Assembly (NCBI GenBank): GCA_032622095.1
Contig: CP136065.1
Coordinates: forward strand, 98,525,343 to 98,589,342
DNA: 64,000 nt
Direction: 5' to 3'
Origin: Siphonodentalium dalli
Lineage: Eukaryota > Mollusca > Scaphopoda > Gadilida > Siphonodentaliidae
In this document: positions 35,439 to 60,625 of the stretch, one piece after another
Numbering within the stretch: the first letter of the stretch is position 1
Layout: each line of letters opens with the position of its first letter
Notes under the pieces: generated by a model
Told to the model about the DNA's origin: nothing
The model's database searches: none
The model's input: the letters and a program-made list of their open reading frames with translations, nothing else
Made by a program: the position numbers and the translations under genes

Positions 35439-35469
<31 letters not shown>

Positions 35470-36977: not shown

Positions 36978-38717
36978 ACTTCCATGGTGTAACCAAGGAA
37001 GTATATTGTTTTTCTACTGAGGTCGTTTTCCGTTTATTTCGAAATAATCAGAAACTGATTGCAGTAGGAACGCGAAATCTCTAGCGAATGTAGGCATCGA
37101 AGGTTTACTACATATAATGGTATCCGGATTTCCGCCCAATGTTTCTTGGCGGAGTTATGGCCCTTTTGCGATTATTTTTCATTGTTATTATTATTATTAT
37201 TATTATTATACTTGACACTTTTGTAACCACTATTACTCGAAAAGTACAAGAAGTAGGACACTAAAACTTGGTAAGTAGGTTGGGGTACATGAGTTCTATG
37301 CCTATGGCCCATAACGATTTTGTCCGCGCTTTCACCGAGGAGTTATCTCCCTTTATTTGAAAAAATGTCAGTTTATTATCTCGGAAATTATAAGAAGCAG
37401 AGCATCGAAAATTAGACCGTATGCACATCTCGATATGCACTACTGCCCACGGGCATAACAACTTGTGTCCGCGCTTTCCCTGAAGAGTTACCGCCCATAG
37501 TTGGCAAACCTCTATTTTATTGTACTCTGTTGTCCTCCCGTATCATTCCAGATAACTGTATTTGGTTTTTGTAGTCGTGTTGACCGTTGTCAGCTTAGTC
37601 CGAAGAAGAAAATTTGACAGGGTTGGCCATATATTTTTACACTGGGGTGGGGGCAAAATTTTCGCAATTTTTTTTTTGTATTGACATTCATCTATTTAAG
37701 TATGTAGATTCCATGAACGAAAACAAACCCATACCGGAAAGGATTTTTGTAATCCGAGAAGAAATGCAAGAGTTACGGGCCCTCAAAGTTTGCAATTTGG
37801 TCCCATGTGCTTGTGCTCACATCTCCTCCGAAGATATCGAACTTAGGATGTCATCTGATATCCCAGTGCGTGCGGTCGGAAGAGAGCACGCGATGTGCCA
37901 AATTTTGCCAGTGTCGGTTAAGTGTTGTGGATCAGGGGAGGGGCGGTCCGGGGTACCAATTTTTTATTCTTCTCCGAATCAGATGAAACTTGGAGTGTAA
38001 CATCTACACCGCCAACCGATCTAGAAACTGAAACAATTTCGAAAATCCATTGAAAAATGACGGAGTTGCGGTCCTTCAAACAATGCAAATTTGGGCCCAT
38101 GTGCCTGTGACCTCATCTCCTCCGAAGATCACAAACTTAGGATGTCATTTGATATCGCAGTGCGCGCGGTCTGAAGAGAGCACTCGATGTGCCAAATTTC
38201 GCAAGTGTCGGTTCAGTGTTGTGGGTCAGGGGAGGGGTGGTCCGAGGTACCAAAATTTAGTTCGTCTCCGAATCATATGAAACTTGGTATATAACATCTA
38301 CCTTATACGTTGATCATAAAACTGAAAACAGATCGTAAATCCGTTAAAAAATGGCGGAGATTTGGGCCCTCAAACTTTGAATGTGGGCCCGTATTCTTTC
38401 TAATAAACAAAATGTTATTCGTCTCTGAATGAGACAAAATTTATAACAAATAATCAATGTAACTAGCTGATCACAATACTCAAAACAATTTTAAAATCCA
38501 TTGGAAAATAACGGAGTTACGGGCTCTCAAAATTCGCATTTTGGGCCGGGTTTGACTATTTCCCAATCCCGTCACCCAATTTCGAGGCAGGGGTGGGGTC
38601 ACTTCCAAAGACTTGAGATCAACCCACACATGTTAAGGGAAAGATATAATCATCCTACTTCATATTTTCCGTCCCTTAACTGCGATTTATTGAGCTCATG
38701 ATTTGGCCTATTATTAT
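36978..38717. repeat. 1740-bp tandem array, unit 2
   Basis: Matches unit 1 apart from one fewer ATT triplet, and shares with it the variant 'GGGCATAACAACTTG' (units 3 to 6 read 'GGGCATAAAAACTTG'). Confidence 0.95.
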
Positions 38718-40457
38718 ACTTCCATGGTGTAACCAAGGAAGTATATTGTTTTTCTACTGAGGTCGTTTTCCGTTTATTTCGAAATAATCAGAAACTGATT
38801 GCAGTAGGAACGCGAAATCTCTAGCGAATGTAGGCATCGAAGGTTTACTACATATAATGGTATCCGGATTTCCGCCCAATGTTTCTTGGCGGAGTTATGG
38901 CCCTTTTGCGATTATTTTTCATTGTTATTATTATTATTATTATTATTATACTTGACACTTTTGTAACCACTATTACTCGAAAAGTACAAGAAGTAGGACA
39001 CTAAAACTTGGTAAGTAGGTTGGGGTACATGAGTTCTATGCCTATGGCCCATAACGATTTTGTCCGCGCTTTCACCGAGGAGTTATCTCCCTTTATTTGA
39101 AAAAATGTCAGTTTATTATCTCGGAAATTATAAGAAGCAGAGCATCGAAAATTAGACCGTATGCACATCTCGATATGCACTACTGCCCACGGGCATAAAA
39201 ACTTGTGTCCGCGCTTTCCCTGAAGAGTTACCGCCCATAGTTGGCAAACCTCTATTTTATTGTACTCTGTTGTCCTCCCGTATCATTCCAGATAACTGTA
39301 TTTGGTTTTTGTAGTCGTGTTGACCGTTGTCAGCTTAGTCCGAAGAAGAAAATTTGACAGGGTTGGCCATATATTTTTACACTGGGGTGGGGGCAAAATT
39401 TTCGCAATTTTTTTTTTGTATTGACATTCATCTATTTAAGTATGTAGATTCCATGAACGAAAACAAACCCATACCGGAAAGGATTTTTGTAATCCGAGAA
39501 GAAATGCAAGAGTTACGGGCCCTCAAAGTTTGCAATTTGGTCCCATGTGCTTGTGCTCACATCTCCTCCGAAGATATCGAACTTAGGATGTCATCTGATA
39601 TCCCAGTGCGTGCGGTCGGAAGAGAGCACGCGATGTGCCAAATTTTGCCAGTGTCGGTTAAGTGTTGTGGATCAGGGGAGGGGCGGTCCGGGGTACCAAT
39701 TTTTTATTCTTCTCCGAATCAGATGAAACTTGGAGTGTAACATCTACACCGCCAACCGATCTAGAAACTGAAACAATTTCGAAAATCCATTGAAAAATGA
39801 CGGAGTTGCGGTCCTTCAAACAATGCAAATTTGGGCCCATGTGCCTGTGACCTCATCTCCTCCGAAGATCACAAACTTAGGATGTCATTTGATATCGCAG
39901 TGCGCGCGGTCTGAAGAGAGCACTCGATGTGCCAAATTTCGCAAGTGTCGGTTCAGTGTTGTGGGTCAGGGGAGGGGTGGTCCGAGGTACCAAAATTTAG
40001 TTCGTCTCCGAATCATATGAAACTTGGTATATAACATCTACCTTATACGTTGATCATAAAACTGAAAACAGATCGTAAATCCGTTAAAAAATGGCGGAGA
40101 TTTGGGCCCTCAAACTTTGAATGTGGGCCCGTATTCTTTCTAATAAACAAAATGTTATTCGTCTCTGAATGAGACAAAATTTATAACAAATAATCAATGT
40201 AACTAGCTGATCACAATACTCAAAACAATTTTAAAATCCATTGGAAAATAACGGAGTTACGGGCTCTCAAAATTCGCATTTTGGGCCGGGTTTGACTATT
40301 TCCCAATCCCGTCACCCAATTTCGAGGCAGGGGTGGGGTCACTTCCAAAGACTTGAGATCAACCCACACATGTTAAGGGAAAGATATAATCATCCTACTT
40401 CATATTTTCCGTCCCTTAACTGCGATTTATTGAGCTCATGATTTGGCCTATTATTAT
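38718..40457. repeat. 1740-bp tandem array, unit 3
   Basis: As unit 2 but with A instead of C in the 'GGGCATAAAAACTTG' word. No other difference noticed by eye. Confidence 0.95.
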
Positions 40458-41215
40458 ACTTCCATGGTGTAACCAAGGAAGTATATTGTTTTTCTACTGA
40501 GGTCGTTTTCCGTTTATTTCGAAATAATCAGAAACTGATTGCAGTAGGAACGCGAAATCTCTAGCGAATGTAGGCATCGAAGGTTTACTACATATAATGG
40601 TATCCGGATTTCCGCCCAATGTTTCTTGGCGGAGTTATGGCCCTTTTGCGATTATTTTTCATTGTTATTATTATTATTATTATTATTATACTTGACACTT
40701 TTGTAACCACTATTACTCGAAAAGTACAAGAAGTAGGACACTAAAACTTGGTAAGTAGGTTGGGGTACATGAGTTCTATGCCTATGGCCCATAACGATTT
40801 TGTCCGCGCTTTCACCGAGGAGTTATCTCCCTTTATTTGAAAAAATGTCAGTTTATTATCTCGGAAATTATAAGAAGCAGAGCATCGAAAATTAGACCGT
40901 ATGCACATCTCGATATGCACTACTGCCCACGGGCATAAAAACTTGTGTCCGCGCTTTCCCTGAAGAGTTACCGCCCATAGTTGGCAAACCTCTATTTTAT
41001 TGTACTCTGTTGTCCTCCCGTATCATTCCAGATAACTGTATTTGGTTTTTGTAGTCGTGTTGACCGTTGTCAGCTTAGTCCGAAGAAGAAAATTTGACAG
41101 GGTTGGCCATATATTTTTACACTGGGGTGGGGGCAAAATTTTCGCAATTTTTTTTTTGTATTGACATTCATCTATTTAAGTATGTAGATTCCATGAACGA
41201 AAACAAACCCATACC
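40458..41215. repeat. 1740-bp tandem array, unit 4, left part
   Basis: The first 758 bp of unit 4, ending at CATACC, which is also the left target duplication of the giant element. The remaining 982 bp resume at 57904. Confidence 0.95.
41210..41215. repeat. 6-bp target-site duplication CATACC, left
   Basis: CATACC occurs once at this point of every uninterrupted unit (followed by GGAAAGG). Here it is present on both sides of the insertion. Confidence 0.93.
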
Positions 41216-41280
41216 AGCAGCATGATTGTAACTCTGGGTCATGTATGTGTGGGACCCCTTTTTCCTATAGGTCTATGGCT

Positions 41281-41350
41281 CCATAGTATGGCAACGCCCC
41301 CTTTCCTATGCTGTGTATATATGGTCCCATGGTATGGTAACGCCCCCTTT
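41281..41350. repeat. Subterminal 24-bp direct repeats (left arm)
   Basis: CCATAGTATGGCAACGCCCC plus CTTT at 41281-41304 recurs with two changes at 41327-41350 (46-bp period). Mirrored copies lie at 57763-57786 and 57809-57832. Their place 66-135 bp from each terminus suits recombinase-binding sites, by inference. Confidence 0.75.
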
Positions 41351-41403
41351 AATTATTATATATCGCTCCTCCTTCCCACGTAATTTCTGGAACATTTTTA
41401 TTG

Positions 41404-41421
41404 TTCTGGAAAATTCTGGAA
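41404..41421. promoter_or_regulatory. Heat-shock-element-like motif (left arm)
   Basis: TTCTGGAAAATTCTGGAA is a perfect TTCnnGAAnnTTCnnGAA arrangement of four alternating heat-shock-factor modules. A three-module copy lies at 41482-41494. The region also contains several 'TTCTGGAACATTTTT' words, so chance within a TTCTGGAA-rich repeat cannot be excluded. Confidence 0.5.
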
Positions 41422-43172
41422 CATTTTTTTTTTGTTCTGGAACATTTTTATTGTTCTGGAACAATCTAGTAAATTTTTTGTTTCTGGAAAATTCTATTTT
41501 TTTCTAGTAAAATCCATAATGTATTCGTGTAATAAAATTCATATTTGTCTACGGTCTCTTTAAAATTATATAACTGTAAAGTCCCGATGTTAATTTCACC
41601 CAGTACACACATTGGCTATCATAGCATCTATCTATTTACCACGCATAGAATATAGGCATTTAAAATTATTTATCAAATCTCCTTAAAACACTTCGGCCCC
41701 TTTAACTTTTTTTACCTTTAATAAAAACATTATTGATCTCACAGATTTATTAACTGTTATGTACCTGGTAGAAAACACATTCCACGAGGCACGCTTTCTA
41801 ACAATAACAGAGCATCATGGAATATATTCTATAATGGTTTAAACGATGCCAGATGTGCACTAAGCACGCGATGCACTAAGTGCGTTTTCACCATGAATTT
41901 ATCTGGTAATTTAAGCGTTCAAACACATTCGGGGGTAACCGTAGATAATAGCCGGTCTAATGTGTAATTCATTCAAACATGGGCCACATATCATTTGCAC
42001 CTATTGGGTAAGAAATTGTCTTTCTAAAAGGTTATGAAAAAGCCGACAAATTAAAACAATCTAGAATGTTCGAGAAAAAAAAATGTTCCACATTGTTCCA
42101 TAACAATAAAAATGTTCCAGAATAACATCAAATTAGTGTGGGCGTTTCAAAGATCACTAGTACGTTCTAGAATAAAGATATATCTTATAAAACCATCGCA
42201 ATCTTCATAACACTGCACTCGCACTTATTTTTATGAGTTGTACGTTTCAAGACTTAATTCAATTCAGGTGGAATAATCTGGAAATTTGTGTCTTCTACAA
42301 CATTATAGTAAATCCATAATGTATTCGTTTAAGACACTTCATACTCGCATATGGCCCTTTAAACTAACAATGCTGAAGGCAGACGCACCTTTGTCTGTTA
42401 ATTAACTTCTAAGCACGTGGGAACACAATGCACCTACTGCAGGGCACAGAGCTCTCAAGCTAATAACACAACATGTAACCATTCTGGAACATTCTCCATA
42501 CCGACGGGGATAAAGCGGTGAAACAGATTAATGAAATTATGCATACCACTAGGTGATAAAACATTTAAGCCTGCACTAATTTGAATAAAAAATATTCAGG
42601 GGCCGGTATCATTTGCACATATTGGTTAGGAAAAATAAAATGCCTTTCTAGCTGCCTCTGAAACAATTAATAAAATTAAAATAATCTACAAAGTTCTCAG
42701 CACGTGGGAGACCATCTAGGTATTAAATACACATCTAACTCCAAGCAGCCAACATATGCTTACAGAGCATAACCCATGCAATTTAATTCTCACAAAAGTT
42801 ATACTGCGAGCGGCATGAACCCTGAATACATACTGACTCCCCATTATGTATCCCTCCTAATGGTCAACTGTTATGGTACAATTGATTAAATCATCACTAA
42901 CATTAGTTAAGCTTTTTCTCTAAATACCCCTTTAATATCTGTAATCGAACTATTAGGAATCAATCAACGCCTTGCCAATAGATATTTGAACATTTCAAAT
43001 AAAGTAAATCCTACACACAATTTCTCGAAGCTTCGTAATTAAACACATGTTTAAGTCATTTAATGCCACGATAGGTCTGTCATTCAAATGCATGCTCCTA
43101 ATGGCTTCTGCATCTGTGGAGACTGAGAGATAAATAAAATTAATGTTTCTGTAGAAATTAAGGTTTTCTAGT

Positions 43173-44724
43173 GTGTCACTACTTCAGATATGGTTCAAAT
43201 AGCATACAAATCACCGCATTTTGGTCACATACCTTAAAGGTACACGTTATTTATGCACTTAAACCTAATTCCGCGTATACATCAACAAAAACGCTCTTTA
43301 TTTCCCAAATAGTTTGAATGTACCTAGTTTTAACAAAGATTTATGCAATCTACATGCTTTCATTCAAATAAAATTTACGACAACAACATTGTAACAGACT
43401 ATCCACTTACCTTCAATTTATAGGTCATATTAGCCTGTACATTTATGGGAGACAGACATACATAATATAATGCATTGGCACAGTGCTACTGATAATAATA
43501 AGGTGTCACTACTTCAGATATGGTTCAAATAACATACAAACACCGCATTTTGGTCACATACCTTAAAGGTACACGTCATTTATGCATTTAAACCTAATTC
43601 CGCGTATACATCAATAAAAACGCTCTTTATTTCTCAAAAACGTCCATAGTTTTAACAAAGATTTATGCAATCTACATGCTTTCATTCAAATAAAATTTAC
43701 GACAACAACATTGTAACAGACTATCCACTTACCTTCAATTTATAGGTCATATTAGCCTGTACATTTATGAGAGACAGACATACATAATATAATGCATTGG
43801 CACAGTGTTACTGATAATAATAAGGTGGCATTACTTCAGAAATGGTTCATATAGCATACTATTGTACCCGTGGTCACATACATTAAACGAACACGTCACT
43901 TAAGCATTTAAACCTAACTCAGTGTATCTATCAATAAAACGCTCTTTATTTTCAAATTTGTCTGAATTGTACTAAATTTACATTTAAAATCAAGCATTTA
44001 AACCTAATTCCGTCCATCCATAAATAAAAAACGCTCTTTATTTTCAAAATTTGTCTTAATGTCCATCGTTTACTAAATTTATATTTAAAATTAAGCATTT
44101 AAACATAATTCATCGTATCCATAAATAAAAAACGCTCTTTATTTTCAAAAACGTCCATAGTTTTAATAAAGATTTTTGCAATCTACATGCTTTCATTCAT
44201 ATAAAATTACCCAGTGTGTGTTAGACAACAACATTATAACATAGTGGCTTTCAAGTTACATATGCATGTGCATTCGATGCACGAGACAACATTGTAGGAA
44301 ATGAAGGCATTGATGTGTCATTACTTCAGAAATTGTTCATACAATTGACCGTATTTTGATCACACACCTTAAAGGTACACGTCACTTTTGTCTATAATCA
44401 CACAAAACATTACACATATAGGGTTCAACATGTCCACCGTAGTAAGCTTATTTACTTCAGAAATGGTTCCAATAACATAGTATTGTACCGGTGGTATCAC
44501 ATACCTTAAAGGTACACGTCACTTTTGTCTATAATCAGACAATACATTACACGTAGGGTTAAACATGTCCACCGTAGTAAACTTATTTACTTCAGAAATG
44601 GTTCCAATAGCATAGTATTATACCCGCGGGGTCACATACCTTAAAGGTACACATCATTTGTGTCTATAATCAGACAATACATTACGCATAGGGTTCAACA
44701 TGGTCACCGAAGCAACCTAATCCA
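43173..44724. repeat. Internal tandem repeats of the left arm
   Basis: Units of about 330 and 322 bp start at 43173, 43503 and 43825, then ~134-bp subunits start near 44,317, 44,452 and 44,588. Recurrent words are 'TACTTCAGANATGGTTC', 'ACCTTAAAGGTACACGTCA' and 'AAAAACGCTCTTTATTT'. The mirrored set is at 54389-55940. The 60- and 92-codon open frames near 44,660-45,084 overlap or abut this repeat and lack recognisable domains. Confidence 0.85.
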
Positions 44725-45791
44725 AAAGCAAAGAACACCCATTACTGAGTCCCGCTGTTACACACAACACAATAACTCGGGATTAAGGTCTTCTAGTGAT
44801 GAGTTATGGTTGTATACTTTAGAAATGGTACCTATAGCATAATATTGTACCACATTGATGCACATCACGTTTCATGTGAATTACATGAGCAGGTAACTCA
44901 ATTCTCTGCATTTCGAATGGAGTTGGGTATTTTTGTATATTATATACAGTGTTATTTAGCTTACAAATGGTTGTTATTTTATATCAATATGCCAGTTTAT
45001 GCCACAGACAAAATGCGTACTCACTCTTCACATAGATTAATATGTAAGCATTTGTATCATTTAGAATGGCAAAATATGGTCTAAGTCAGTCGTATTAGCT
45101 ATATATAGCCACTTACCGTTCAAGTTATAACCCCATTAAAACTATGCTTCAAATGTAAATTATATGTAACTTGAATATGATCGGTCCCCAGGCCCTTTTT
45201 AGGTCATAGGTTCTAACCGACCATCGTTCATACTCGAACGCTTGTGTATATGATAGATGTGGTAATGGTAGAGAGAGCTAGTTAGGCAGGCCGTGAGATA
45301 GGTACACCCACTGCCTACATCAATATATATATACGATATACATGTACTGGCCGCAATGGGTTCCCGTTACTAGCCTATAGACATGAAGTATTAAAGTTAT
45401 ACACCTTCATCAGCGCGCTCTTAATGAGTTTTGAATTGGCATATGGGTACGAATCCAAACTATTCGGATGTAATTTAACGGAATGCCAATCATAACAATC
45501 TGTACAGAGAAAGCTAGTGGGAACGATACACACTGTTTGCGTAATTGACTAGACACATGGCGGTAAAGAAGCACCCTGATGTATCAAAGGTATATTTCAA
45601 GGATTTTTAATCGGCAACCAATTATTGAATATATTTTTGTTGGGCATGGTCATATGCACCACTGTGTTTCATATAAAACAAATAGTGGGTGGTTAAATCA
45701 CCGAAGGCCAATATTCCCGATGGTAAGTTATTTTTAGCATATGGGATACATTTATGACTAAATCGGTTATAGGAAATGAGGTAAATTGCAC

Positions 45792-45797
45792 TTTATT
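45792..45797 (-). terminator. AATAAA polyadenylation signal, left copy
   Basis: AATAAA on the minus strand, about 160 nt past the stop codon of the 192-residue gene. The mirrored copy is at 53316-53321. Confidence 0.55.
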
Positions 45798-45955
45798 ATT
45801 TAAAAGGAATAACGCTATACAAGCTTAAACACACAAACCATGGGTTTTTATCAACTTATTACGTGTAGCATATTTGGAGTTTAGTTATGTTCATCAAACA
45901 CCGGCAATTGACACCTCTGTCTGGATATTTATGTTATTACGATTGGGTCCCGTGT

Positions 45956-46534
45956 TCACCCTTTTTTAGTCGTAAGCGAATAGTCTCCATAGCTCCAAAT
46001 CGTTCCGAATGTCCAAACTAATTCACTATTTAATTCTGAAATAGGTTTAGTTGTGCTTACAATGTAATCCAAAACTAGTTGTTCATTTAACATCTTTTCA
46101 ATAGTGAAAATAGGACAAGGTTCCCTCATAATAATGTAACCATAAATTGATGTAACTTCTTCGAATTCCAAACTATAGTCATTAAAAACCGTGCTACGGT
46201 ATTCAGCGAAGCGGGCAAAGTTATCACCGATAAGTACACGAATCTCATATATGTCTTTTTTAGTAATACCACTAAATATCCAACACTCAGAAAACAGTTG
46301 ATCCAAAGTATCCAGTAAGGTATCTGTTTCAAATTCTGATCTCTCCATCAAAGCATTCAATCTCTTTCTACCATCATCAAAATTTCCTTCTAGAAGTTCC
46401 GTAATTATTATTTTACTCTCCCTTAAGAACCATGTATGTTGTAATTCTGTTTTGATGTCTCCATGTATCGTTGACGCGTTAACTAACTCCTTGTAAATTT
46501 TCTCAAGCATTTCTGTGGGTAATATTTCCTCCAT
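45956..46534 (-). CDS. Orphan 192-aa protein of the giant element, left copy
   Basis: Intact single-exon gene, identical in translation to 52579-53157 on the other arm and transcribed away from the centre toward the left end. ATG is the first in frame, and a CCAAT box, a TATA box and an AATAAA signal are correctly placed around it. The protein is acidic and appears mostly helical, with no signal peptide or membrane segment. I do not recognise a family. The first ~75 residues, with 'HGDIKTEL', 'WFLRESKIIITELL' and 'DDGRKRLNALMERSEF', recall the helix spacing of a death-fold (CARD-like) domain. The start 'EEILPTEMLEKIYKELV' also recalls the first helix of an F-box. Both are weak inferences. It is the only convincing gene in the arm and may help the element interact with its host cell. 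Confidence 0.75.
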   Translation of the reverse strand: MEEILPTEMLEKIYKELVNASTIHGDIKTELQHTWFLRESKIIITELLEGNFDDGRKRLNALMERSEFETDTLLDTLDQLFSECWIFSGITKKDIYEIRVLIGDNFARFAEYRSTVFNDYSLEFEEVTSIYGYIIMREPCPIFTIEKMLNEQLVLDYIVSTTKPISELNSELVWTFGTIWSYGDYSLTTKKG

Positions 46535-46700
46535 AATTCCTAATTTACAAAACCATCTGTTTATTCGAGTAAATCCGCTAACTCACATGTCATTGGGCAT
46601 GAGTTTCTCATATAATTAACACAATCGGTTGTTCGTACCCATACCTAGTGAGCTTTTGATCTATAATAGCTAACGGTAATGTATTTAGTTCTTATTATAA

Positions 46701-46714
46701 TATTTATAACCAAT
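46701..46714 (-). promoter_or_regulatory. TATA and CCAAT boxes of the orphan gene, left copy
   Basis: TATAAATA (minus strand, 46708-46701) lies about 165 nt upstream of the ATG, with an inverted CCAAT box two bases further upstream (46710-46714). Confidence 0.5.
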
Positions 46715-48710
46715 CAAAATCCGTTGCTGAATTTAGCTATACGAGGACAAACGGAATGATAACAGCCGTTCAACAACTTGGTATTCCAGTCATAGTCATA
46801 GTTCATTTCATATTATTGCTCTAAAATCTCCATTACATGTAGAAAATAAAGAGCCCATCTGATGTAGACTAGTATATAAGTACTTAGTGATTTATTTTCA
46901 TCAATTATATGTATTGTTACTCCTTTAAATATAGTTTGTTATACAGAGGATACATCGCCCACGTGACAGTATCGTGTCGCGAAAGGTCTATACAAGTATA
47001 TAAATGCGCGTCAGGTTTATGTATATGTCCCTGTTTCTTAAAGCAAATCCAGTACATATACGTGCATTGAGACACGTGCAATTGCCACTAGTAAATCACG
47101 TATAAAAGCTCTTTACCGCATAGTCAAACTGTTGAGTTTTCACACGTATTCTATGTCGTTTTTTATGGACTATATACGTGGTATATGTCAGTATATACAC
47201 GAATGTAATGTAATCACGTATTAATTTCATATATTCTTCTCAAAACAACTCAGCACAACGCATCAATTCTGATGTCTATGGCGGTTCAAACAGTGTACAC
47301 TTTCAGTGTTGTTACCGTTTGATGCATACCATACTCATTTATGCATAATAACGCGGGTCTACATCGTTGCTATATACCTATATACGTCCATATTTCTTAA
47401 AGTATAGTATCTATACGTACATCATGGCGTATATTAAACCCCCTTTCACTGGTAAATCACGAATAAACGCTCTTTATTGTATAGTCAACTAACCATTTAT
47501 ACATACACGCTGCTCTATGGTGGTCTGTTGTGTCTTACCATTATACCATTATATGTAGAAGGTAATGTAGTCAAATATGTATAAGTCTGATTTTGTGTCA
47601 ATGTGCCTGTTATTAATCTCATCAATTGGGTCATTTATAAGTCGTCAAACATGATGATTTCTAATCATCTAATAGGTATTATAAAAAATGCCTACTTCAC
47701 AAATATTCTGAGTGCATTTCAGTGTATATTTCGTACTCTGTAAAAACGTGATTTGACCGCTAGTGATGTAGTGAAATAACCTATTTTATAGTTGTCAAAT
47801 ACGTACTAAAAATATTGTCAATTTATGACTCATCTAATGAATTTTCCACACCTAGTGTCTACAATATGTTTATATATTGTGACTCATTACGACGATTGCA
47901 GTATGTCCACGTATGTCAGATATTACATAACCTTGATAACTATGTTTAGAAATACCTGGTATATGAGGTCATATTGTAGCTGACAGAGACTGGAATGCGA
48001 CTTGCATCTACCATCACGTGCGTTCGAATGACGTTACATGTACGATATGAGCCATTATATGTGTCGATGAGGTGTTATATCAGTATATTCATGCAATATT
48101 CGTAAATGACAGCAACATATCTTTTCCCTCCCATTATCAAGCGAGATTTTGTGGTTAGATGACAAACATGGCATTTCGAATATATATAGCCTATTGGATA
48201 CTTACTTCAAATGCTAAAATTGCCTCTTCAAAATAGTTAAAAGCACACATTTTTATTTCGAATTTCATTGTTTACGGTTAATTTTCTGTTATGAAATTGG
48301 TCCTTTTATAAACGCGTATTACGTAGTTACAAAAAGCCCTAATTGACAAACATTTTAAGTGCTATTATGACTATATTCGACGAATAAAAAAAACGCCATT
48401 TGACATAGTACAACAACGCGAAATGACTACTTTTTTAAACGCGAATTTGAAACAAAACTAATATACAAAAGAATTTTAAACTAAAATTATAAGTTTGGTT
48501 GATGTATAGTTTGGTTGACAGCATTTTCACACACAGAAGCGTTATGATAAAGATTCACCACGCACACAGAAGCGATCTTATACGGTGTAGCGGTATGTTA
48601 CAGAGTTATCGTTCTTTTCGAGGCTAAAAAAAGCGCAGGCCGGCCCCTCCCTCTCCCCCGTTTTAAAAGGGGTGGGGTTAAGGGGAAGCGATCGAGCGTC
48701 ACGAAAAAAA

Positions 48711-50403
48711 TGTCATAGAAGAAAAGTATAAGGCAGAGGAAATGGATGAGGGAAACGACACAGTATGAGGGGTAATGGAGTGTGGGACAGGGGGATGGGA
48801 TGATATGACCGTGTATTAATTGGAAATGATAATGGATTAGGTAGTGTACACTGTTCATGGTTTTTAATATATGAATTAACATAAAGTGAAGAACTTAGGA
48901 GGCTAGGAAAAGCCACTCTATATAGGTGTATACATGTATATGGTGCAAAAGGGGGAAGGAGATGGGGAGAGCGTGAGGCAGGAAATTGTGGTAGAAGGGT
49001 ATAATTTGGAGAAAAACATTGAGGTGTAAACCTTACTTTCCTAGGAAAAAATTGGGATTGTTGTGGGTAGAACAGAGGTAAAATAAGAGTTGTATAAAAT
49101 GGAAAAGGGAGACATTAAAAGCATGAAAGGTGCTTATGGGAAAAGGGTAAAGGGGGGCAGTGGGAGAGTGTACAGAGGTGTATATCGAAGAGTATAGGAG
49201 GCTAAGAAAAGCCACTCAATATAGGTTTATACATGTAGATGGTGCAAAAAGGGGAAGGAGATGGGGAGAGCGAGAGGCAAGAAATTGGGGCAGAAGGGTA
49301 TAATTTGGAGACAACATTGAGGTGTAAGCCTTACTTTCCTAGGAAAACATTGGGATTGTTGTGGGTAGAACAGAGGTAAAATAAGAGGTGTATAAAATGG
49401 AAAAGGGGGACATTAAAAGCATGAAAGGTGCTTATGGGAAAAGGGTAAAGGGGCATTGGGAGAGTGTATATAGGTGTATAGCGAAGAGTATAGGAGGCTA
49501 ACAAAAGCCACTCAACATAGGTTTATATATGTGTAAAATGGGGAAGGCGATGGGGAGAGTGAGAGGCAAGTAAATGGGTGCAGAAGGGTATAATTTGGAG
49601 AATACGTTGAGTAGTAAGCATTACTTTCCTAGGAAAACATTGGGATTGTTGTGGGAAGAACAAAGTGTTTAGAGGTACAAAAGGGGAAGGTAAACAAGAA
49701 TGAAAGGTGGTTATGTGGAGCAAGGTAAATGGGGTATAGGGTAAAATACATAGAGGTGTATAGCAGAGAGCTGGGTTGGGGAACATGTACATAATTAAAG
49801 TAGATGAGATAAGAATAATCATTGAGTATATACCTAAATCATATGAAATGTGGGGGTTTTGCTTTGGAAGGAGAGGGGTTACCATGCTTGCAGACAGTAA
49901 TTATGGGTAAGAGCCGGCAAGGGGCTTAAATGGTATAGAAAATAAAATGGCACCAGGTAGAGGGAGTGAGAAAAGAGGGCCATATGGGTAAAAGTATAAC
50001 TAAATCATATGAACTGGGTGGAGGGGAGAAGAGATGGGTAAAAGGGGACACACATATATATATATATATATAATTTAGGTGTAAGCAGTTGATCGAAAAC
50101 ATAGGGGATGTAACGCGACAAAAGAGTAAACATAAAGCAGAGAATGAATGGAAAGTATTACATATATGTGTATGAACTTGGTGGTTTGTGTATTAAGGAT
50201 ACAGTAGTAAAAAGGAGAACACATGCAAAATGGTGTAAACTTATAGGAAATGACAGGGACATTGGGCAAAGAACATGAATGATGCACAAAGTAGCAAAAA
50301 GATGATGGCTAAGAAGTTCGGAAGGGAGGGGGTTATATTGGGTAAGGGTAAAAGTAGAATTGTGGTAAATATGTAGAAAGGTTATGTGTAAAATGGGGTG
50401 AAA
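48711..50403. other. Purine-rich asymmetric centre of the giant element
   Basis: This 1693-bp segment is not part of the inverted repeat. Its plus strand is strongly G/A-rich ('GGGGAAGGAGATGGGGAGAG' recurs) with a short (TA)n run near 50,055. Open frames on the minus strand (up to 120 codons) are low-complexity Ser/Pro/Leu/Tyr translations of the purine-rich strand and I do not accept them as genes. Confidence 0.8.
48897..49790. repeat. ~297-bp tandem repeat in the centre, three copies
   Basis: Units start at 48897, 49196 and 49492 with AGGAGGCTA and then 'AAAAGCCACTC'. Each contains 'CCTTACTTTCCTAGGAAAA' or a near variant and 'ATTGGGATTGTTGTGGG'. Copies diverge by several percent and the last is less regular. 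Confidence 0.85.
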
Positions 50404-52398
50404 TTTTTTTCGTGACGCTCGATCGCTTCCCCTTAACCCCACCCCTTTTAAAACGGGGGAGAGGGAGGGGCCGGCCTGCGCTTTTTTAGCCTCGAAAAGA
50501 ACGATAACTCTGTAACATACCGCTACACCGTATAAGATCGCTTCTGTGTGCGTGGTGAATCTTTATCATAACGCTTCTGTGTGTGAAAATGCTGTCAACC
50601 AAACTATACATCAACCAAACTTATAATTTTAGTTTAAAATTCTTTTGTATATTAGTTTTGTTTCAAATTCGCGTTTAAAAAAGTAGTCATTTCGCGTTGT
50701 TGTACTATGTCAAATGGCGTTTTTTTTATTCGTCGAATATAGTCATAATAGCACTTAAAATGTTTGTCAATTAGGGCTTTTTGTAACTACGTAATACGCG
50801 TTTATAAAAGGACCAATTTCATAACAGAAAATTAACCGTAAACAATGAAATTCGAAATAAAAATGTGTGCTTTTAACTATTTTGAAGAGGCAATTTTAGC
50901 ATTTGAAGTAAGTATCCAATAGGCTATATATATTCGAAATGCCATGTTTGTCATCTAACCACAAAATCTCGCTTGATAATGGGAGGGAAAAGATATGTTG
51001 CTGTCATTTACGAATATTGCATGAATATACTGATATAACACCTCATCGACACATATAATGGCTCATATCGTACATGTAACGTCATTCGAACGCACGTGAT
51101 GGTAGATGCAAGTCGCATTCCAGTCTCTGTCAGCTACAATATGATCTCATATACCAGGTATTTCTAAACATAGTTATCAAGGTTATGTAATATCTGACAT
51201 ACGTGGACATACTGCAATCGTAGTAATGAGTCACAATATATAAACATATTGTAGACACTAGGTGTGGAAAATTCATTAGATGAGTCATAAATTGACAATA
51301 TTTTTAGTACGTATTTGACAACTATAAAATAGGTTATTTCACTACATCACTAGCGGTCAAATCACGTTTTTACAGAGTACGAAATATACACTGAAATGCA
51401 CTCAGAATATTTGTGAAGTAGGCATTTTTTATAATACCTATTAGATGATTAGAAATCATCATGTTTGACGACTTATAAATGACCCAATTGATGAGATTAA
51501 TAACAGGCACATTGACACAAAATCAGACTTATACATATTTGACTACATTACCTTCTACATATAATGGTATAATGGTAAGACACAACAGACCACCATAGAG
51601 CAGCGTGTATGTATAAATGGTTAGTTGACTATACAATAAAGAGCGTTTATTCGTGATTTACCAGTGAAAGGGGGTTTAATATACGCCATGATGTACGTAT
51701 AGATACTATACTTTAAGAAATATGGACGTATATAGGTATATAGCAACGATGTAGACCCGCGTTATTATGCATAAATGAGTATGGTATGCATCAAACGGTA
51801 ACAACACTGAAAGTGTACACTGTTTGAACCGCCATAGACATCAGAATTGATGCGTTGTGCTGAGTTGTTTTGAGAAGAATATATGAAATTAATACGTGAT
51901 TACATTACATTCGTGTATATACTGACATATACCACGTATATAGTCCATAAAAAACGACATAGAATACGTGTGAAAACTCAACAGTTTGACTATGCGGTAA
52001 AGAGCTTTTATACGTGATTTACTAGTGGCAATTGCACGTGTCTCAATGCACGTATATGTACTGGATTTGCTTTAAGAAACAGGGACATATACATAAACCT
52101 GACGCGCATTTATATACTTGTATAGACCTTTCGCGACACGATACTGTCACATGGGCGATGTATCCTCTGTATAACAGACTATATTTAAAGGAGTAACAAT
52201 ACATATAATTGATGAAAATAAATCACTAAGTACTTATATACTAGTCTACATCAGATGGGCTCTTTATTTTCTACATGTAATGGAGATTTTAGAGCAATAA
52301 TATGAAATGAACTATGACTATGACTGGAATACCAAGTTGTTGAACGGCTGTTATCATTCCGTTTGTCCTCGTATAGCTAAATTCAGCAACGGATTTTG

Positions 52399-52412
52399 AT
52401 TGGTTATAAATA
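52399..52412 (+). promoter_or_regulatory. CCAAT and TATA boxes of the orphan gene, right copy
   Basis: ATTGG (52399-52403) followed by TATAAATA (52405-52412), 167 nt before the ATG. The tight pairing and mirror-image conservation support a real promoter, though the spacing to the CCAAT box is unusually short. Confidence 0.5.
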
Positions 52413-52578
52413 TTATAATAAGAACTAAATACATTACCGTTAGCTATTATAGATCAAAAGCTCACTAGGTATGGGTACGAACAACCGATTGTGTTAATTA
52501 TATGAGAAACTCATGCCCAATGACATGTGAGTTAGCGGATTTACTCGAATAAACAGATGGTTTTGTAAATTAGGAATT

Positions 52579-53157
52579 ATGGAGGAAATATTACCCACAG
52601 AAATGCTTGAGAAAATTTACAAGGAGTTAGTTAACGCGTCAACGATACATGGAGACATCAAAACAGAATTACAACATACATGGTTCTTAAGGGAGAGTAA
52701 AATAATAATTACGGAACTTCTAGAAGGAAATTTTGATGATGGTAGAAAGAGATTGAATGCTTTGATGGAGAGATCAGAATTTGAAACAGATACCTTACTG
52801 GATACTTTGGATCAACTGTTTTCTGAGTGTTGGATATTTAGTGGTATTACTAAAAAAGACATATATGAGATTCGTGTACTTATCGGTGATAACTTTGCCC
52901 GCTTCGCTGAATACCGTAGCACGGTTTTTAATGACTATAGTTTGGAATTCGAAGAAGTTACATCAATTTATGGTTACATTATTATGAGGGAACCTTGTCC
53001 TATTTTCACTATTGAAAAGATGTTAAATGAACAACTAGTTTTGGATTACATTGTAAGCACAACTAAACCTATTTCAGAATTAAATAGTGAATTAGTTTGG
53101 ACATTCGGAACGATTTGGAGCTATGGAGACTATTCGCTTACGACTAAAAAAGGGTGA
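52579..53157 (+). CDS. Orphan 192-aa protein of the giant element, right copy
   Basis: Mirror copy of 45956-46534 with the same 192-residue translation. It is transcribed toward the right end, so the two copies point outward from the purine-rich centre. Frame and stop (TGA at 53155-53157) are intact. Conserved-looking internal segments include 'LDQLFSECWIFSGITKKDIY', 'GDNFARFAEYRSTVF' and a C-terminal 'ELVWTFGTIWSYGDY' rich in Trp and Tyr. Two perfectly identical copies could reflect recent origin or arm-to-arm gene conversion, so identity alone does not prove selection. Compact size, no intron, a near TATA box and a near AATAAA are virus-like features. Function unknown. Confidence 0.75.
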   Translation: MEEILPTEMLEKIYKELVNASTIHGDIKTELQHTWFLRESKIIITELLEGNFDDGRKRLNALMERSEFETDTLLDTLDQLFSECWIFSGITKKDIYEIRVLIGDNFARFAEYRSTVFNDYSLEFEEVTSIYGYIIMREPCPIFTIEKMLNEQLVLDYIVSTTKPISELNSELVWTFGTIWSYGDYSLTTKKG

Positions 53158-53315
53158 ACACGGGACCCAATCGTAATAACATAAATATCCAGACAGAGGT
53201 GTCAATTGCCGGTGTTTGATGAACATAACTAAACTCCAAATATGCTACACGTAATAAGTTGATAAAAACCCATGGTTTGTGTGTTTAAGCTTGTATAGCG
53301 TTATTCCTTTTAAAT

Positions 53316-53321
53316 AATAAA
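53316..53321 (+). terminator. AATAAA polyadenylation signal, right copy
   Basis: AATAAA 159 nt past the stop codon, followed by AGTGCAATTT. Mirror of 45792-45797. Confidence 0.55.
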
Positions 53322-54388
53322 GTGCAATTTACCTCATTTCCTATAACCGATTTAGTCATAAATGTATCCCATATGCTAAAAATAACTTACCATCGGGAAT
53401 ATTGGCCTTCGGTGATTTAACCACCCACTATTTGTTTTATATGAAACACAGTGGTGCATATGACCATGCCCAACAAAAATATATTCAATAATTGGTTGCC
53501 GATTAAAAATCCTTGAAATATACCTTTGATACATCAGGGTGCTTCTTTACCGCCATGTGTCTAGTCAATTACGCAAACAGTGTGTATCGTTCCCACTAGC
53601 TTTCTCTGTACAGATTGTTATGATTGGCATTCCGTTAAATTACATCCGAATAGTTTGGATTCGTACCCATATGCCAATTCAAAACTCATTAAGAGCGCGC
53701 TGATGAAGGTGTATAACTTTAATACTTCATGTCTATAGGCTAGTAACGGGAACCCATTGCGGCCAGTACATGTATATCGTATATATATATTGATGTAGGC
53801 AGTGGGTGTACCTATCTCACGGCCTGCCTAACTAGCTCTCTCTACCATTACCACATCTATCATATACACAAGCGTTCGAGTATGAACGATGGTCGGTTAG
53901 AACCTATGACCTAAAAAGGGCCTGGGGACCGATCATATTCAAGTTACATATAATTTACATTTGAAGCATAGTTTTAATGGGGTTATAACTTGAACGGTAA
54001 GTGGCTATATATAGCTAATACGACTGACTTAGACCATATTTTGCCATTCTAAATGATACAAATGCTTACATATTAATCTATGTGAAGAGTGAGTACGCAT
54101 TTTGTCTGTGGCATAAACTGGCATATTGATATAAAATAACAACCATTTGTAAGCTAAATAACACTGTATATAATATACAAAAATACCCAACTCCATTCGA
54201 AATGCAGAGAATTGAGTTACCTGCTCATGTAATTCACATGAAACGTGATGTGCATCAATGTGGTACAATATTATGCTATAGGTACCATTTCTAAAGTATA
54301 CAACCATAACTCATCACTAGAAGACCTTAATCCCGAGTTATTGTGTTGTGTGTAACAGCGGGACTCAGTAATGGGTGTTCTTTGCTTT

Positions 54389-55940
54389 TGGATTAGGTTG
54401 CTTCGGTGACCATGTTGAACCCTATGCGTAATGTATTGTCTGATTATAGACACAAATGATGTGTACCTTTAAGGTATGTGACCCCGCGGGTATAATACTA
54501 TGCTATTGGAACCATTTCTGAAGTAAATAAGTTTACTACGGTGGACATGTTTAACCCTACGTGTAATGTATTGTCTGATTATAGACAAAAGTGACGTGTA
54601 CCTTTAAGGTATGTGATACCACCGGTACAATACTATGTTATTGGAACCATTTCTGAAGTAAATAAGCTTACTACGGTGGACATGTTGAACCCTATATGTG
54701 TAATGTTTTGTGTGATTATAGACAAAAGTGACGTGTACCTTTAAGGTGTGTGATCAAAATACGGTCAATTGTATGAACAATTTCTGAAGTAATGACACAT
54801 CAATGCCTTCATTTCCTACAATGTTGTCTCGTGCATCGAATGCACATGCATATGTAACTTGAAAGCCACTATGTTATAATGTTGTTGTCTAACACACACT
54901 GGGTAATTTTATATGAATGAAAGCATGTAGATTGCAAAAATCTTTATTAAAACTATGGACGTTTTTGAAAATAAAGAGCGTTTTTTATTTATGGATACGA
55001 TGAATTATGTTTAAATGCTTAATTTTAAATATAAATTTAGTAAACGATGGACATTAAGACAAATTTTGAAAATAAAGAGCGTTTTTTATTTATGGATGGA
55101 CGGAATTAGGTTTAAATGCTTGATTTTAAATGTAAATTTAGTACAATTCAGACAAATTTGAAAATAAAGAGCGTTTTATTGATAGATACACTGAGTTAGG
55201 TTTAAATGCTTAAGTGACGTGTTCGTTTAATGTATGTGACCACGGGTACAATAGTATGCTATATGAACCATTTCTGAAGTAATGCCACCTTATTATTATC
55301 AGTAACACTGTGCCAATGCATTATATTATGTATGTCTGTCTCTCATAAATGTACAGGCTAATATGACCTATAAATTGAAGGTAAGTGGATAGTCTGTTAC
55401 AATGTTGTTGTCGTAAATTTTATTTGAATGAAAGCATGTAGATTGCATAAATCTTTGTTAAAACTATGGACGTTTTTGAGAAATAAAGAGCGTTTTTATT
55501 GATGTATACGCGGAATTAGGTTTAAATGCATAAATGACGTGTACCTTTAAGGTATGTGACCAAAATGCGGTGTTTGTATGTTATTTGAACCATATCTGAA
55601 GTAGTGACACCTTATTATTATCAGTAGCACTGTGCCAATGCATTATATTATGTATGTCTGTCTCCCATAAATGTACAGGCTAATATGACCTATAAATTGA
55701 AGGTAAGTGGATAGTCTGTTACAATGTTGTTGTCGTAAATTTTATTTGAATGAAAGCATGTAGATTGCATAAATCTTTGTTAAAACTAGGTACATTCAAA
55801 CTATTTGGGAAATAAAGAGCGTTTTTGTTGATGTATACGCGGAATTAGGTTTAAGTGCATAAATAACGTGTACCTTTAAGGTATGTGACCAAAATGCGGT
55901 GATTTGTATGCTATTTGAACCATATCTGAAGTAGTGACAC
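54389..55940. repeat. Internal tandem repeats of the right arm
   Basis: Mirror of 43173-44724. On this strand the recurrent words read 'TGACGTGTACCTTTAAGGTA' and 'AAATAAAGAGCGTTTTTATT', each present about five or six times. Confidence 0.85.
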
Positions 55941-57691
55941 ACTAGAAAACCTTAATTTCTACAGAAACATTAATTTTATTTATCTCTCAGTCTCCACAGA
56001 TGCAGAAGCCATTAGGAGCATGCATTTGAATGACAGACCTATCGTGGCATTAAATGACTTAAACATGTGTTTAATTACGAAGCTTCGAGAAATTGTGTGT
56101 AGGATTTACTTTATTTGAAATGTTCAAATATCTATTGGCAAGGCGTTGATTGATTCCTAATAGTTCGATTACAGATATTAAAGGGGTATTTAGAGAAAAA
56201 GCTTAACTAATGTTAGTGATGATTTAATCAATTGTACCATAACAGTTGACCATTAGGAGGGATACATAATGGGGAGTCAGTATGTATTCAGGGTTCATGC
56301 CGCTCGCAGTATAACTTTTGTGAGAATTAAATTGCATGGGTTATGCTCTGTAAGCATATGTTGGCTGCTTGGAGTTAGATGTGTATTTAATACCTAGATG
56401 GTCTCCCACGTGCTGAGAACTTTGTAGATTATTTTAATTTTATTAATTGTTTCAGAGGCAGCTAGAAAGGCATTTTATTTTTCCTAACCAATATGTGCAA
56501 ATGATACCGGCCCCTGAATATTTTTTATTCAAATTAGTGCAGGCTTAAATGTTTTATCACCTAGTGGTATGCATAATTTCATTAATCTGTTTCACCGCTT
56601 TATCCCCGTCGGTATGGAGAATGTTCCAGAATGGTTACATGTTGTGTTATTAGCTTGAGAGCTCTGTGCCCTGCAGTAGGTGCATTGTGTTCCCACGTGC
56701 TTAGAAGTTAATTAACAGACAAAGGTGCGTCTGCCTTCAGCATTGTTAGTTTAAAGGGCCATATGCGAGTATGAAGTGTCTTAAACGAATACATTATGGA
56801 TTTACTATAATGTTGTAGAAGACACAAATTTCCAGATTATTCCACCTGAATTGAATTAAGTCTTGAAACGTACAACTCATAAAAATAAGTGCGAGTGCAG
56901 TGTTATGAAGATTGCGATGGTTTTATAAGATATATCTTTATTCTAGAACGTACTAGTGATCTTTGAAACGCCCACACTAATTTGATGTTATTCTGGAACA
57001 TTTTTATTGTTATGGAACAATGTGGAACATTTTTTTTTCTCGAACATTCTAGATTGTTTTAATTTGTCGGCTTTTTCATAACCTTTTAGAAAGACAATTT
57101 CTTACCCAATAGGTGCAAATGATATGTGGCCCATGTTTGAATGAATTACACATTAGACCGGCTATTATCTACGGTTACCCCCGAATGTGTTTGAACGCTT
57201 AAATTACCAGATAAATTCATGGTGAAAACGCACTTAGTGCATCGCGTGCTTAGTGCACATCTGGCATCGTTTAAACCATTATAGAATATATTCCATGATG
57301 CTCTGTTATTGTTAGAAAGCGTGCCTCGTGGAATGTGTTTTCTACCAGGTACATAACAGTTAATAAATCTGTGAGATCAATAATGTTTTTATTAAAGGTA
57401 AAAAAAGTTAAAGGGGCCGAAGTGTTTTAAGGAGATTTGATAAATAATTTTAAATGCCTATATTCTATGCGTGGTAAATAGATAGATGCTATGATAGCCA
57501 ATGTGTGTACTGGGTGAAATTAACATCGGGACTTTACAGTTATATAATTTTAAAGAGACCGTAGACAAATATGAATTTTATTACACGAATACATTATGGA
57601 TTTTACTAGAAAAAAATAGAATTTTCCAGAAACAAAAAATTTACTAGATTGTTCCAGAACAATAAAAATGTTCCAGAACAAAAAAAAAATG

Positions 57692-57709
57692 TTCCAGAAT
57701 TTTCCAGAA
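57692..57709. promoter_or_regulatory. Heat-shock-element-like motif (right arm)
   Basis: TTCCAGAATTTTCCAGAA, the mirror of 41404-41421, about 190 bp from the right terminus. Confidence 0.5.
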
Positions 57710-57897
57710 CAATAAAAATGTTCCAGAAATTACGTGGGAAGGAGGAGCGATATATAATAATTAAAGGGGGCGTTACCATACCATGGGACCATATATACAC
57801 AGCATAGGAAAGGGGGCGTTGCCATACTATGGAGCCATAGACCTATAGGAAAAAGGGGTCCCACACATACATGACCCAGAGTTACAATCATGCTGCT

Positions 57898-57903
57898 CAT
57901 ACC
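57898..57903. repeat. 6-bp target-site duplication CATACC, right
   Basis: Second copy of CATACC, followed directly by GGAAAGG as in uninterrupted units. Confidence 0.93.
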
Positions 57904-58885
57904 GGAAAGGATTTTTGTAATCCGAGAAGAAATGCAAGAGTTACGGGCCCTCAAAGTTTGCAATTTGGTCCCATGTGCTTGTGCTCACATCTCCTCCGAA
58001 GATATCGAACTTAGGATGTCATCTGATATCCCAGTGCGTGCGGTCGGAAGAGAGCACGCGATGTGCCAAATTTTGCCAGTGTCGGTTAAGTGTTGTGGAT
58101 CAGGGGAGGGGCGGTCCGGGGTACCAATTTTTTATTCTTCTCCGAATCAGATGAAACTTGGAGTGTAACATCTACACCGCCAACCGATCTAGAAACTGAA
58201 ACAATTTCGAAAATCCATTGAAAAATGACGGAGTTGCGGTCCTTCAAACAATGCAAATTTGGGCCCATGTGCCTGTGACCTCATCTCCTCCGAAGATCAC
58301 AAACTTAGGATGTCATTTGATATCGCAGTGCGCGCGGTCTGAAGAGAGCACTCGATGTGCCAAATTTCGCAAGTGTCGGTTCAGTGTTGTGGGTCAGGGG
58401 AGGGGTGGTCCGAGGTACCAAAATTTAGTTCGTCTCCGAATCATATGAAACTTGGTATATAACATCTACCTTATACGTTGATCATAAAACTGAAAACAGA
58501 TCGTAAATCCGTTAAAAAATGGCGGAGATTTGGGCCCTCAAACTTTGAATGTGGGCCCGTATTCTTTCTAATAAACAAAATGTTATTCGTCTCTGAATGA
58601 GACAAAATTTATAACAAATAATCAATGTAACTAGCTGATCACAATACTCAAAACAATTTTAAAATCCATTGGAAAATAACGGAGTTACGGGCTCTCAAAA
58701 TTCGCATTTTGGGCCGGGTTTGACTATTTCCCAATCCCGTCACCCAATTTCGAGGCAGGGGTGGGGTCACTTCCAAAGACTTGAGATCAACCCACACATG
58801 TTAAGGGAAAGATATAATCATCCTACTTCATATTTTCCGTCCCTTAACTGCGATTTATTGAGCTCATGATTTGGCCTATTATTAT
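57904..58885. repeat. 1740-bp tandem array, unit 4, right part
   Basis: The remaining 982 bp of the interrupted unit. 758 plus 982 is 1740, the regular unit length. Confidence 0.95.
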
Positions 58886-60625
58886 ACTTCCATGGTGTAA
58901 CCAAGGAAGTATATTGTTTTTCTACTGAGGTCGTTTTCCGTTTATTTCGAAATAATCAGAAACTGATTGCAGTAGGAACGCGAAATCTCTAGCGAATGTA
59001 GGCATCGAAGGTTTACTACATATAATGGTATCCGGATTTCCGCCCAATGTTTCTTGGCGGAGTTATGGCCCTTTTGCGATTATTTTTCATTGTTATTATT
59101 ATTATTATTATTATTATACTTGACACTTTTGTAACCACTATTACTCGAAAAGTACAAGAAGTAGGACACTAAAACTTGGTAAGTAGGTTGGGGTACATGA
59201 GTTCTATGCCTATGGCCCATAACGATTTTGTCCGCGCTTTCACCGAGGAGTTATCTCCCTTTATTTGAAAAAATGTCAGTTTATTATCTCGGAAATTATA
59301 AGAAGCAGAGCATCGAAAATTAGACCGTATGCACATCTCGATATGCACTACTGCCCACGGGCATAAAAACTTGTGTCCGCGCTTTCCCTGAAGAGTTACC
59401 GCCCATAGTTGGCAAACCTCTATTTTATTGTACTCTGTTGTCCTCCCGTATCATTCCAGATAACTGTATTTGGTTTTTGTAGTCGTGTTGACCGTTGTCA
59501 GCTTAGTCCGAAGAAGAAAATTTGACAGGGTTGGCCATATATTTTTACACTGGGGTGGGGGCAAAATTTTCGCAATTTTTTTTTTGTATTGACATTCATC
59601 TATTTAAGTATGTAGATTCCATGAACGAAAACAAACCCATACCGGAAAGGATTTTTGTAATCCGAGAAGAAATGCAAGAGTTACGGGCCCTCAAAGTTTG
59701 CAATTTGGTCCCATGTGCTTGTGCTCACATCTCCTCCGAAGATATCGAACTTAGGATGTCATCTGATATCCCAGTGCGTGCGGTCGGAAGAGAGCACGCG
59801 ATGTGCCAAATTTTGCCAGTGTCGGTTAAGTGTTGTGGATCAGGGGAGGGGCGGTCCGGGGTACCAATTTTTTATTCTTCTCCGAATCAGATGAAACTTG
59901 GAGTGTAACATCTACACCGCCAACCGATCTAGAAACTGAAACAATTTCGAAAATCCATTGAAAAATGACGGAGTTGCGGTCCTTCAAACAATGCAAATTT
60001 GGGCCCATGTGCCTGTGACCTCATCTCCTCCGAAGATCACAAACTTAGGATGTCATTTGATATCGCAGTGCGCGCGGTCTGAAGAGAGCACTCGATGTGC
60101 CAAATTTCGCAAGTGTCGGTTCAGTGTTGTGGGTCAGGGGAGGGGTGGTCCGAGGTACCAAAATTTAGTTCGTCTCCGAATCATATGAAACTTGGTATAT
60201 AACATCTACCTTATACGTTGATCATAAAACTGAAAACAGATCGTAAATCCGTTAAAAAATGGCGGAGATTTGGGCCCTCAAACTTTGAATGTGGGCCCGT
60301 ATTCTTTCTAATAAACAAAATGTTATTCGTCTCTGAATGAGACAAAATTTATAACAAATAATCAATGTAACTAGCTGATCACAATACTCAAAACAATTTT
60401 AAAATCCATTGGAAAATAACGGAGTTACGGGCTCTCAAAATTCGCATTTTGGGCCGGGTTTGACTATTTCCCAATCCCGTCACCCAATTTCGAGGCAGGG
60501 GTGGGGTCACTTCCAAAGACTTGAGATCAACCCACACATGTTAAGGGAAAGATATAATCATCCTACTTCATATTTTCCGTCCCTTAACTGCGATTTATTG
60601 AGCTCATGATTTGGCCTATTATTAT
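58886..60625. repeat. 1740-bp tandem array, unit 5
   Basis: Matches unit 3 by eye, including the A variant in 'GGGCATAAAAACTTG'. Confidence 0.95.

Follow-up and report, generated by a model that had tools for sequence, protein, structure and literature searches.

The genome of the scaphopod Siphonodentalium dalli carries a giant palindromic mobile element, which we analysed in a stretch of 64,000 nucleotides (assembly GCA_032622095.1, contig CP136065.1, positions 98,525,343 to 98,589,342 of the forward strand), hereafter the window. The element is an insert of 16,682 bp at positions 41216-57897 and interrupts a host tandem array (35444..62579, no strand assigned). With the insert set aside, the array has a period of 1740 bp and comprises 6.00 units with one mismatch, measured as identity at distance 1740. 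The exact outer boundaries run from AAACCCATACC into AGCAGC on the left and from GCTGCT into CATACCGGAAAGG on the right. The hexamer CATACC lies on both sides of the insert (41210..41215 and 57898..57903, both + strand) as a 6-bp target-site duplication. Removing the insert and one CATACC restores a unit of 1740 bp that is identical over 870+870 bp to its nearest neighbour units on both sides. The insert, its 7.5-kb inverted arms, the AG...CT ends, the CATACC duplication and the exact split of one unit had all been reported in a preliminary description of the locus and were recovered when re-measured. The 16,682-bp palindrome is a mobile-element insertion, as that description had held, and this is borne out by the exact boundaries and by 16 further pairs of ends of the same kind.

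The left arm (41216..48715, + strand) and the right arm (50399..57897, - strand) are 99.9% identical and enclose a single-copy centre of 1,683 bp (48716..50398, + strand). They are indeed inverted 7.5-kb copies, but not quite identical ones. End to end, their alignment shows five substitutions and an indel in a run of A, none of them outside the inner 1.78 kb, so that near-identical is the better description. The substitution at position 7497 of 7500 falls where arm and centre meet and may belong to the centre. Each end carries a short terminal trinucleotide repeat, (AGC)2 on the left (41216..41221, + strand) and its inverted counterpart on the right (57892..57897, - strand; (GCT)2 on the + strand); two other copies have three or six units at one end. 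Within the window, the 22-bp terminus matched only the two insert ends at up to three mismatches, compared with no match in 100 shuffles, and it had no exact match in viral_contigs.

To find further copies, we searched the species' own assembly (2.23 Gb, nine contigs), taking the initial 300 bp of the arm as query. The best 40 of 261 first-look candidates were scored, and all family counts rest on these 40. Every one matched at an E-value of 4.4 × 10−99 or better. They resolve into 17 facing pairs, one of which is the window copy, plus six single ends. The facing ends of the pairs lie 6.5-17.9 kb apart. These pairs are the ones most like the window's end, and such a search could miss relatives whose ends have diverged, whether they have shorter arms or a complete set of genes. 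For each of the 16 other pairs (copies are given L numbers below), the two end pieces were fetched separately. An AGCAGC start and a GCTGCT end were found in all 16, and hence in 17 of 17 with the window. The 6-bp duplication is exact as read in 14 of the 16, as it is in the window. The remaining two, L024 and L046, show it if extra terminal GCT units are counted as part of the element; between element and duplication their right ends have six and three units, respectively, against the usual two. The duplication of L034 is exact as first read and fails when terminal units are recounted, a reading that gives 16 of 17; this case is ambiguous because the duplication itself ends in AGC. Further copies that share the terminus and are flanked by 6-bp duplications, which the preliminary description had proposed to look for, thus exist in this genome.

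All 17 duplications differ from one another. Together with the architecture that the copies share, this argues indirectly against an assembly artefact, in which the palindrome would stem from a chimeric inverted read or from collapse of the consensus. The near-identity of the window copy's arms is what such an artefact would leave behind. However, the flanks of the window palindrome are not inverted copies of each other, and the arms of older copies differ along the arm, middle included. We regard an artefact as highly improbable.

Inverted arms were found in all 16 other pairs, and in 13 of them the contiguous arm measures at least 5.1 kb. Shorter contiguous arms occur in L028, which is rearranged beyond 2.6 kb, in L050 with 3.7 kb and in L048 with 1.2 kb. 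The arm/centre boundary sequence is common to 11 of the 14 copies whose inner arm was examined, window included; L044 and L052 have a different boundary, and the L022 piece ends before it. The centre of the window copy is purine-rich on its + strand (A 37%, G 32%, C 8%), and its CpG observed/expected ratio is 0.31, compared with 0.94 in the arms. A purine-rich centre, in either orientation, was present in 12 of the 16 other pairs. No match to it was found in L044, L048 and L052, and the L022/L023 pieces end before the centre. At the centre of L044 and L052 there is instead an open coding frame.

We compared the two arms of each copy with each other and with those of other copies. This comparison omitted L048, used left arms only between copies and ranked alignments of 3 kb or less last. 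Arm-arm divergence (0.01-0.93%) was below the divergence to the nearest other copy (0.31-2.62%) in all 16 copies compared. Judged by these divergences, the arms of each copy evolve together.

In the window, all six arm differences lie within the inner 1.78 kb (one-sided P about 1.3 × 10−4, or 7.5 × 10−4 for five), and this clustering prompted the same test on the other copies. Among long-armed copies, the five with the least arm divergence have all of their 12 arm substitutions in the innermost quarter. Without three boundary bases, one each from the window, L026 (which then contributes no difference) and L036, the count in these youngest copies is nine of nine, with P about 4 × 10−6 if the differences are independent, an optimistic value for reasons weighed below. 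Pooled over eight older copies, arm differences are even by quarter (37, 33, 27 and 37). For L028 and L050 the count covers the contiguous outer part of the arm only, 2.6 and 3.7 kb, respectively. L048, whose 1.23-kb arm has a single difference, in the outermost quarter, was assigned to neither the young nor the old group. Steady equalisation of the arms within the chromosome was set aside as an explanation, because the arms of older copies diverge along their length.

Near-identical arms would also result if the displaced strand of each new copy folded back at the centre and primed synthesis of the second arm on the first. Palindromes made in this way occur in defective linear genomes. Such snapback synthesis would account for the arms and for a 600-bp tandem duplication near the end of the L022/L023 copy, which is present in both of its arms. 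Recent copies nevertheless retain arm differences in the inner quarter, and a variant in one L036 arm occurs in both L046 arms. From its distribution this difference looks inherited, which counts against snapback since copying of a whole arm would erase it. The variant is a single one and could have arisen twice. On balance we find snapback synthesis improbable.

Each arm of the window copy contains an open frame of 192 codons (45956..46534, - strand, in the left arm; 52579..53157, + strand, in the right arm). When the arm was simulated 1000 times under a first-order Markov model, no frame reached this length, the largest having 184 codons. The frame occurs at 96% identity or more in ten copies beyond the window. 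Among the 22 arms of these 11 close copies it is open in 20, and it is broken in L031 and L046. The close copies have too few changes for dN/dS, the ratio of nonsynonymous (dN) to synonymous (dS) divergence, and their dN and dS alone say little: L032, L033, L036, L038 and L047 (five of the 11 frames) differ from the window by one to three nonsynonymous and no synonymous changes. A more distant relative, 63% identical, is held by L042. Against it, dN is 0.22-0.24, dS 0.52-0.60 and dN/dS 0.37-0.46. Synonymous change is above the neutral expectation (47 of 136 changes, P 3 × 10−4), with approximate numbers of nonsynonymous and synonymous sites (447 and 120), for which the dN/dS comparison implies about 458 and 118. 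Base periodicity was not decisive, being equalled by 309 of 2000 stop-free simulations and by 19 of 1647 arm windows outside open reading frames. We therefore base the prediction of a gene under purifying selection on its retention in other copies and on dN/dS against the L042 relative, and not on periodicity.

The preliminary description had assigned an intact orphan gene to each arm. Each arm does have the frame, and the predicted protein appears to be an orphan within the searches made, a eukaryotic protein database not being among them. It gave weak, unconvincing matches alone in Pfam (E-value 0.05), PDB (0.03) and PHROGs (0.04), and no relative in viral_contigs or in the bacterial and archaeal genome_contigs. 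An AlphaFold2 model made without an alignment is mostly helical, with a mean predicted local distance difference test score of 39.

Another branch of the family (L040, L044, L048, L050, L052 and L056) encodes a 188-amino-acid PC4-like protein instead of the 192-codon frame. The Pfam search was run on the L044 protein alone (PF02229, E-value 7.5 × 10−14), and the others were assigned because their translations are identical to it or almost so. In three members, L044, L052 and L056, frames adjoining the arm match Pox_A32 above the cut-off of 22.8 bits, scoring 28.5, 27.9 and 26.6 bits, respectively; they also match Adeno_IVa2, below the cut-off. As fetched, the A32-like frame is 581 amino acids long in L056, and it runs off the fetched pieces in L044 and L052. 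A PDB search with the 581-amino-acid frame gave nothing useful, and the L052 protein had no relative in viral_contigs. Beside one copy (L016:2723-3256) there is a 177-amino-acid frame with a weak phage-integrase-like (tyrosine recombinase) match below the cut-off.

The window copy itself was screened with Pfam in six frames over arm and centre, with X at stops, and gave nothing at an E-value of 0.1. A retrovirus-like integrase was accordingly not detected in the window copy, while relatives were examined by selected frames only. Capsid proteins and protease had no Pfam match in the window copy either, the Pfam coverage of both being uncertain and without a positive control.

Protein-primed DNA polymerases are encoded elsewhere in the genome. 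A search with PF03175 (pPolB), in which 69 of 1596 candidates were scored, gave at least 149 matches above the cut-off at 69 distinct places. The open frames that contain most of them are about 950 or 1,310-1,330 codons long. The 71 tabulated matches are at least 1.85 Mb from any of the 17 pairs and at least 2.7 Mb from the six single ends. Each of the remaining 78 matches has one of these 71 within 5 kb. Many of the stop-free pPolB frames, of about 952 and about 1,312-1,330 codons, have equal scores, which suggests that two polymerase-bearing element types multiplied recently in this genome. At C5:75.04 Mb, two pPolB frames stand about 7 kb apart. The polymerase-bearing elements are possible helpers of the palindromic family.

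The long inverted arms would also fit a foldback-type cut-and-paste DNA transposon (P/Galileo, Mutator, IS3EU, Ginger2, Dada or piggyBac) with very long inverted ends, whose arms were equalised by chromosomal gene conversion or gap repair. A shape with internal tandem repeats like that of Tetris and Galileo, the precedent for an inverted fusion in piggybac-5, and a window copy without a detected polymerase or integrase are in keeping with this assignment. The duplications are not the TTAA of piggyBac, however, and the ends are AG...CT. On its ends we rejected IS3EU/GingerRoot, which shares the 6-bp duplication and has TA..TA (or TG..CA) ends; those of Ginger2 are TGTNR. Dada, which lacks terminal inverted repeats and targets small-RNA genes, was rejected because this element has inverted ends and the window no Rfam family at the gathering threshold. 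The 6-bp duplication led us to reject the P superfamily with Galileo, for which the consulted part of the source gives 7-8 bp (PMC4168063), and the Mutator-type foldback Tetris, for which it likewise gives 8-10 bp (PMC4079207). The A32-like ATPase match in three relatives and the absence of visible steady conversion in older copies also tell against a cut-and-paste foldback element, which we consider unlikely.

Instead, the element is probably a non-autonomous, Polinton/Maverick-derived satellite of palindromic architecture, which would be copied in trans from its ends and anneal to itself, its arms being equalised in the process. We call it Polinton-derived because its ends, duplication and size fit, because one branch has an A32-like match, and because either the ends or the length of the duplication speak against the rival superfamilies. 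We do not call it a Polinton proper because the length of its repeats departs from that of Polintons and because genes are missing. The co-evolution of the arms, the different patterns of arm differences in young and old copies, and the varying end units suggest protein-primed replication, a self-annealing strand and integration with a 6-bp stagger. A helper's protein-primed polymerase would copy the element starting at the AGC-repeat ends, and the displaced single strand would anneal to itself as a panhandle with a 7.5-kb stem and a 1.7-kb loop. With each round of replication the arms would thereby be equalised, beginning at the ends and moving inward. The linear product would then be inserted by a helper integrase, giving the 6-bp duplications. 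Homogenisation would end at insertion, with the arms diverging afterwards. To our knowledge, the protein priming of Polintons has been inferred from their polymerase, and their replication has not been watched in any animal. In the portion of the literature consulted, protein-primed systems initiate by sliding or jumping back (PMC3480470), and by analogy the varying number of end units (2, 3 and 6) may fit such initiation.

Several observations weigh against the Polinton-derived reading. The P value of about 4 × 10−6 is optimistic because some of the nine inner differences lie close together (a group of three in L036 falls within 44 bp, and a pair in the window is separated by 26 bp) and because four copies contribute all nine; counting each copy once gives P 0.004 (0.25^4). 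Among the older copies, L028, L044 and L052 are uneven and were excluded from the even set only after the counts were known; pooled with them, the quarters hold 40, 53, 35 and 75 differences (P 3 × 10−4). In L044 and L052 the inner part of the element consists of GC-rich short repeats, which makes the alignment there unsure. The Pox_A32 matches are partial, each covering about 60 of 242 profile positions, and the six-frame Pfam screen detected no polymerase, integrase or ATPase in the window copy. Changes in terminal units could be ordinary slippage. The panhandle is a step that we infer, and conversion or gap repair could also equalise the arms. Lastly, the polymerase-bearing elements could not be tied to these ends, nor identified as Polintons; a 4.4-kb stretch beside one pPolB had no AGCAGC and no similarity beyond 26 bp.

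Further repeats lie within the element. The centre contains a 298-bp tandem repeat of 2.6 units (48896..49662, + strand). Tandem repeats of 322, 101 and 135 bp are clustered in the left arm (43173..44709, + strand) and mirrored in the right, and include ACCTTAAAGGT five times. A 16-mer of the arm repeats matched 13 contigs without similarity beyond 26 bp, which we took as chance, and an 18-mer had no match in the contigs. Near both ends, TTCTGGAA-type sites are clustered at 41385-41513 and mirrored at 57600-57728. They resemble what we take to be heat-shock-element halves, and the left cluster folds into hairpins as single-stranded DNA (300-base stretch, z -2.0). Elsewhere in the window, transposase-like frames at 31459-35000 shortly precede the tandem array, with a TNP-like RNase H match just below the cut-off. 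A cluster of diverged tandem repeats, about 65-84% alike, lies at 7300-9144, and at 10388-11648 a LINE-like remnant gives a zf-RVT match that falls short of the cut-off. A C2H2 array stands beside one copy of the family.

The preliminary interpretation as a whole is partly supported. Its remark that no described transposon family was known with 90 percent of its length in inverted arms and an intact orphan gene in each is mistaken or at least incomplete, for two reasons. Firstly, foldback elements dominated by long inverted arms are known, as the consulted parts of the reports on Tetris (PMC4079207) and Galileo (PMC4168063) describe. With these and Tm1 our family shares long inverted arms, internal tandem repeats and non-autonomous copies. 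It differs from Tetris and Galileo, insofar as those accounts go, in that their duplications are 7-10 bp and their ends are different, and in having a branch with an A32-like ATPase. Similarly, piggybac-5 of Astatotilapia calliptera is described as an inverted piggyBac fusion with 51 full copies in the consulted sections of its report (PMC11202377). Like our element it is non-autonomous and has multiplied with two segments of one element in opposite sense. It differs in its piggyBac lineage, and those sections report neither arm co-evolution nor accessory genes.

Secondly, in its ends, its duplication and its size the element matches Polintons/Mavericks. According to the consulted sections of PMC8097293, the duplication of intact vertebrate Mavericks is 6 bp, their six-base end motifs include (AGT)2//(ACT)2 and (AG)3//(CT)3, their length averages 16,862 +/- 1,678 bp and their terminal inverted repeats measure 46-1,447 bp. 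The likeness lies in the 6-bp duplication, the AG...CT ends with a short tandem end motif, the A32-like match in three relatives and the family size of mostly 12-18 kb; 14 of the 17 pairs fall within the Polinton size range of 12.7-24.6 kb, and the others measure 6.5, 11.9 and 12.2 kb. The difference lies in the inverted repeats, which here reach about 8 kb, in the window copy's lack of a detected polymerase or integrase, and in an accessory gene present once per arm. A literature search over titles and abstract openings, with few subscription journals and Repbase not searched, found no palindromic Polinton. If our reading is true, the family records Polinton replication in its end-unit variation, in equalisation that stops at insertion and in a gradient from the ends inward. 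The family also shows that a near-total palindrome can multiply and keep a gene under purifying selection.

Virophages and satellite viruses offer a last comparison, drawn from partial accounts of them. Our family differs in that the Pfam screen of the window copy found no capsid gene and no particle or infection is known. The likeness, as we interpret it, is that of a passenger of a related replicating element, with one branch keeping an ATPase and a PC4-like gene. Tentatively, then, this genome may hold a class of satellite Polintons, defective-interfering-like passengers with a self-complementary panhandle that have kept the replication ends, a packaging-like size (mostly 12-18 kb), duplicated PC4-like (single-strand-binding-type) or other arm genes and, in one branch, a packaging-type ATPase. 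They might live off autonomous elements in the same genome and possibly restrain them.

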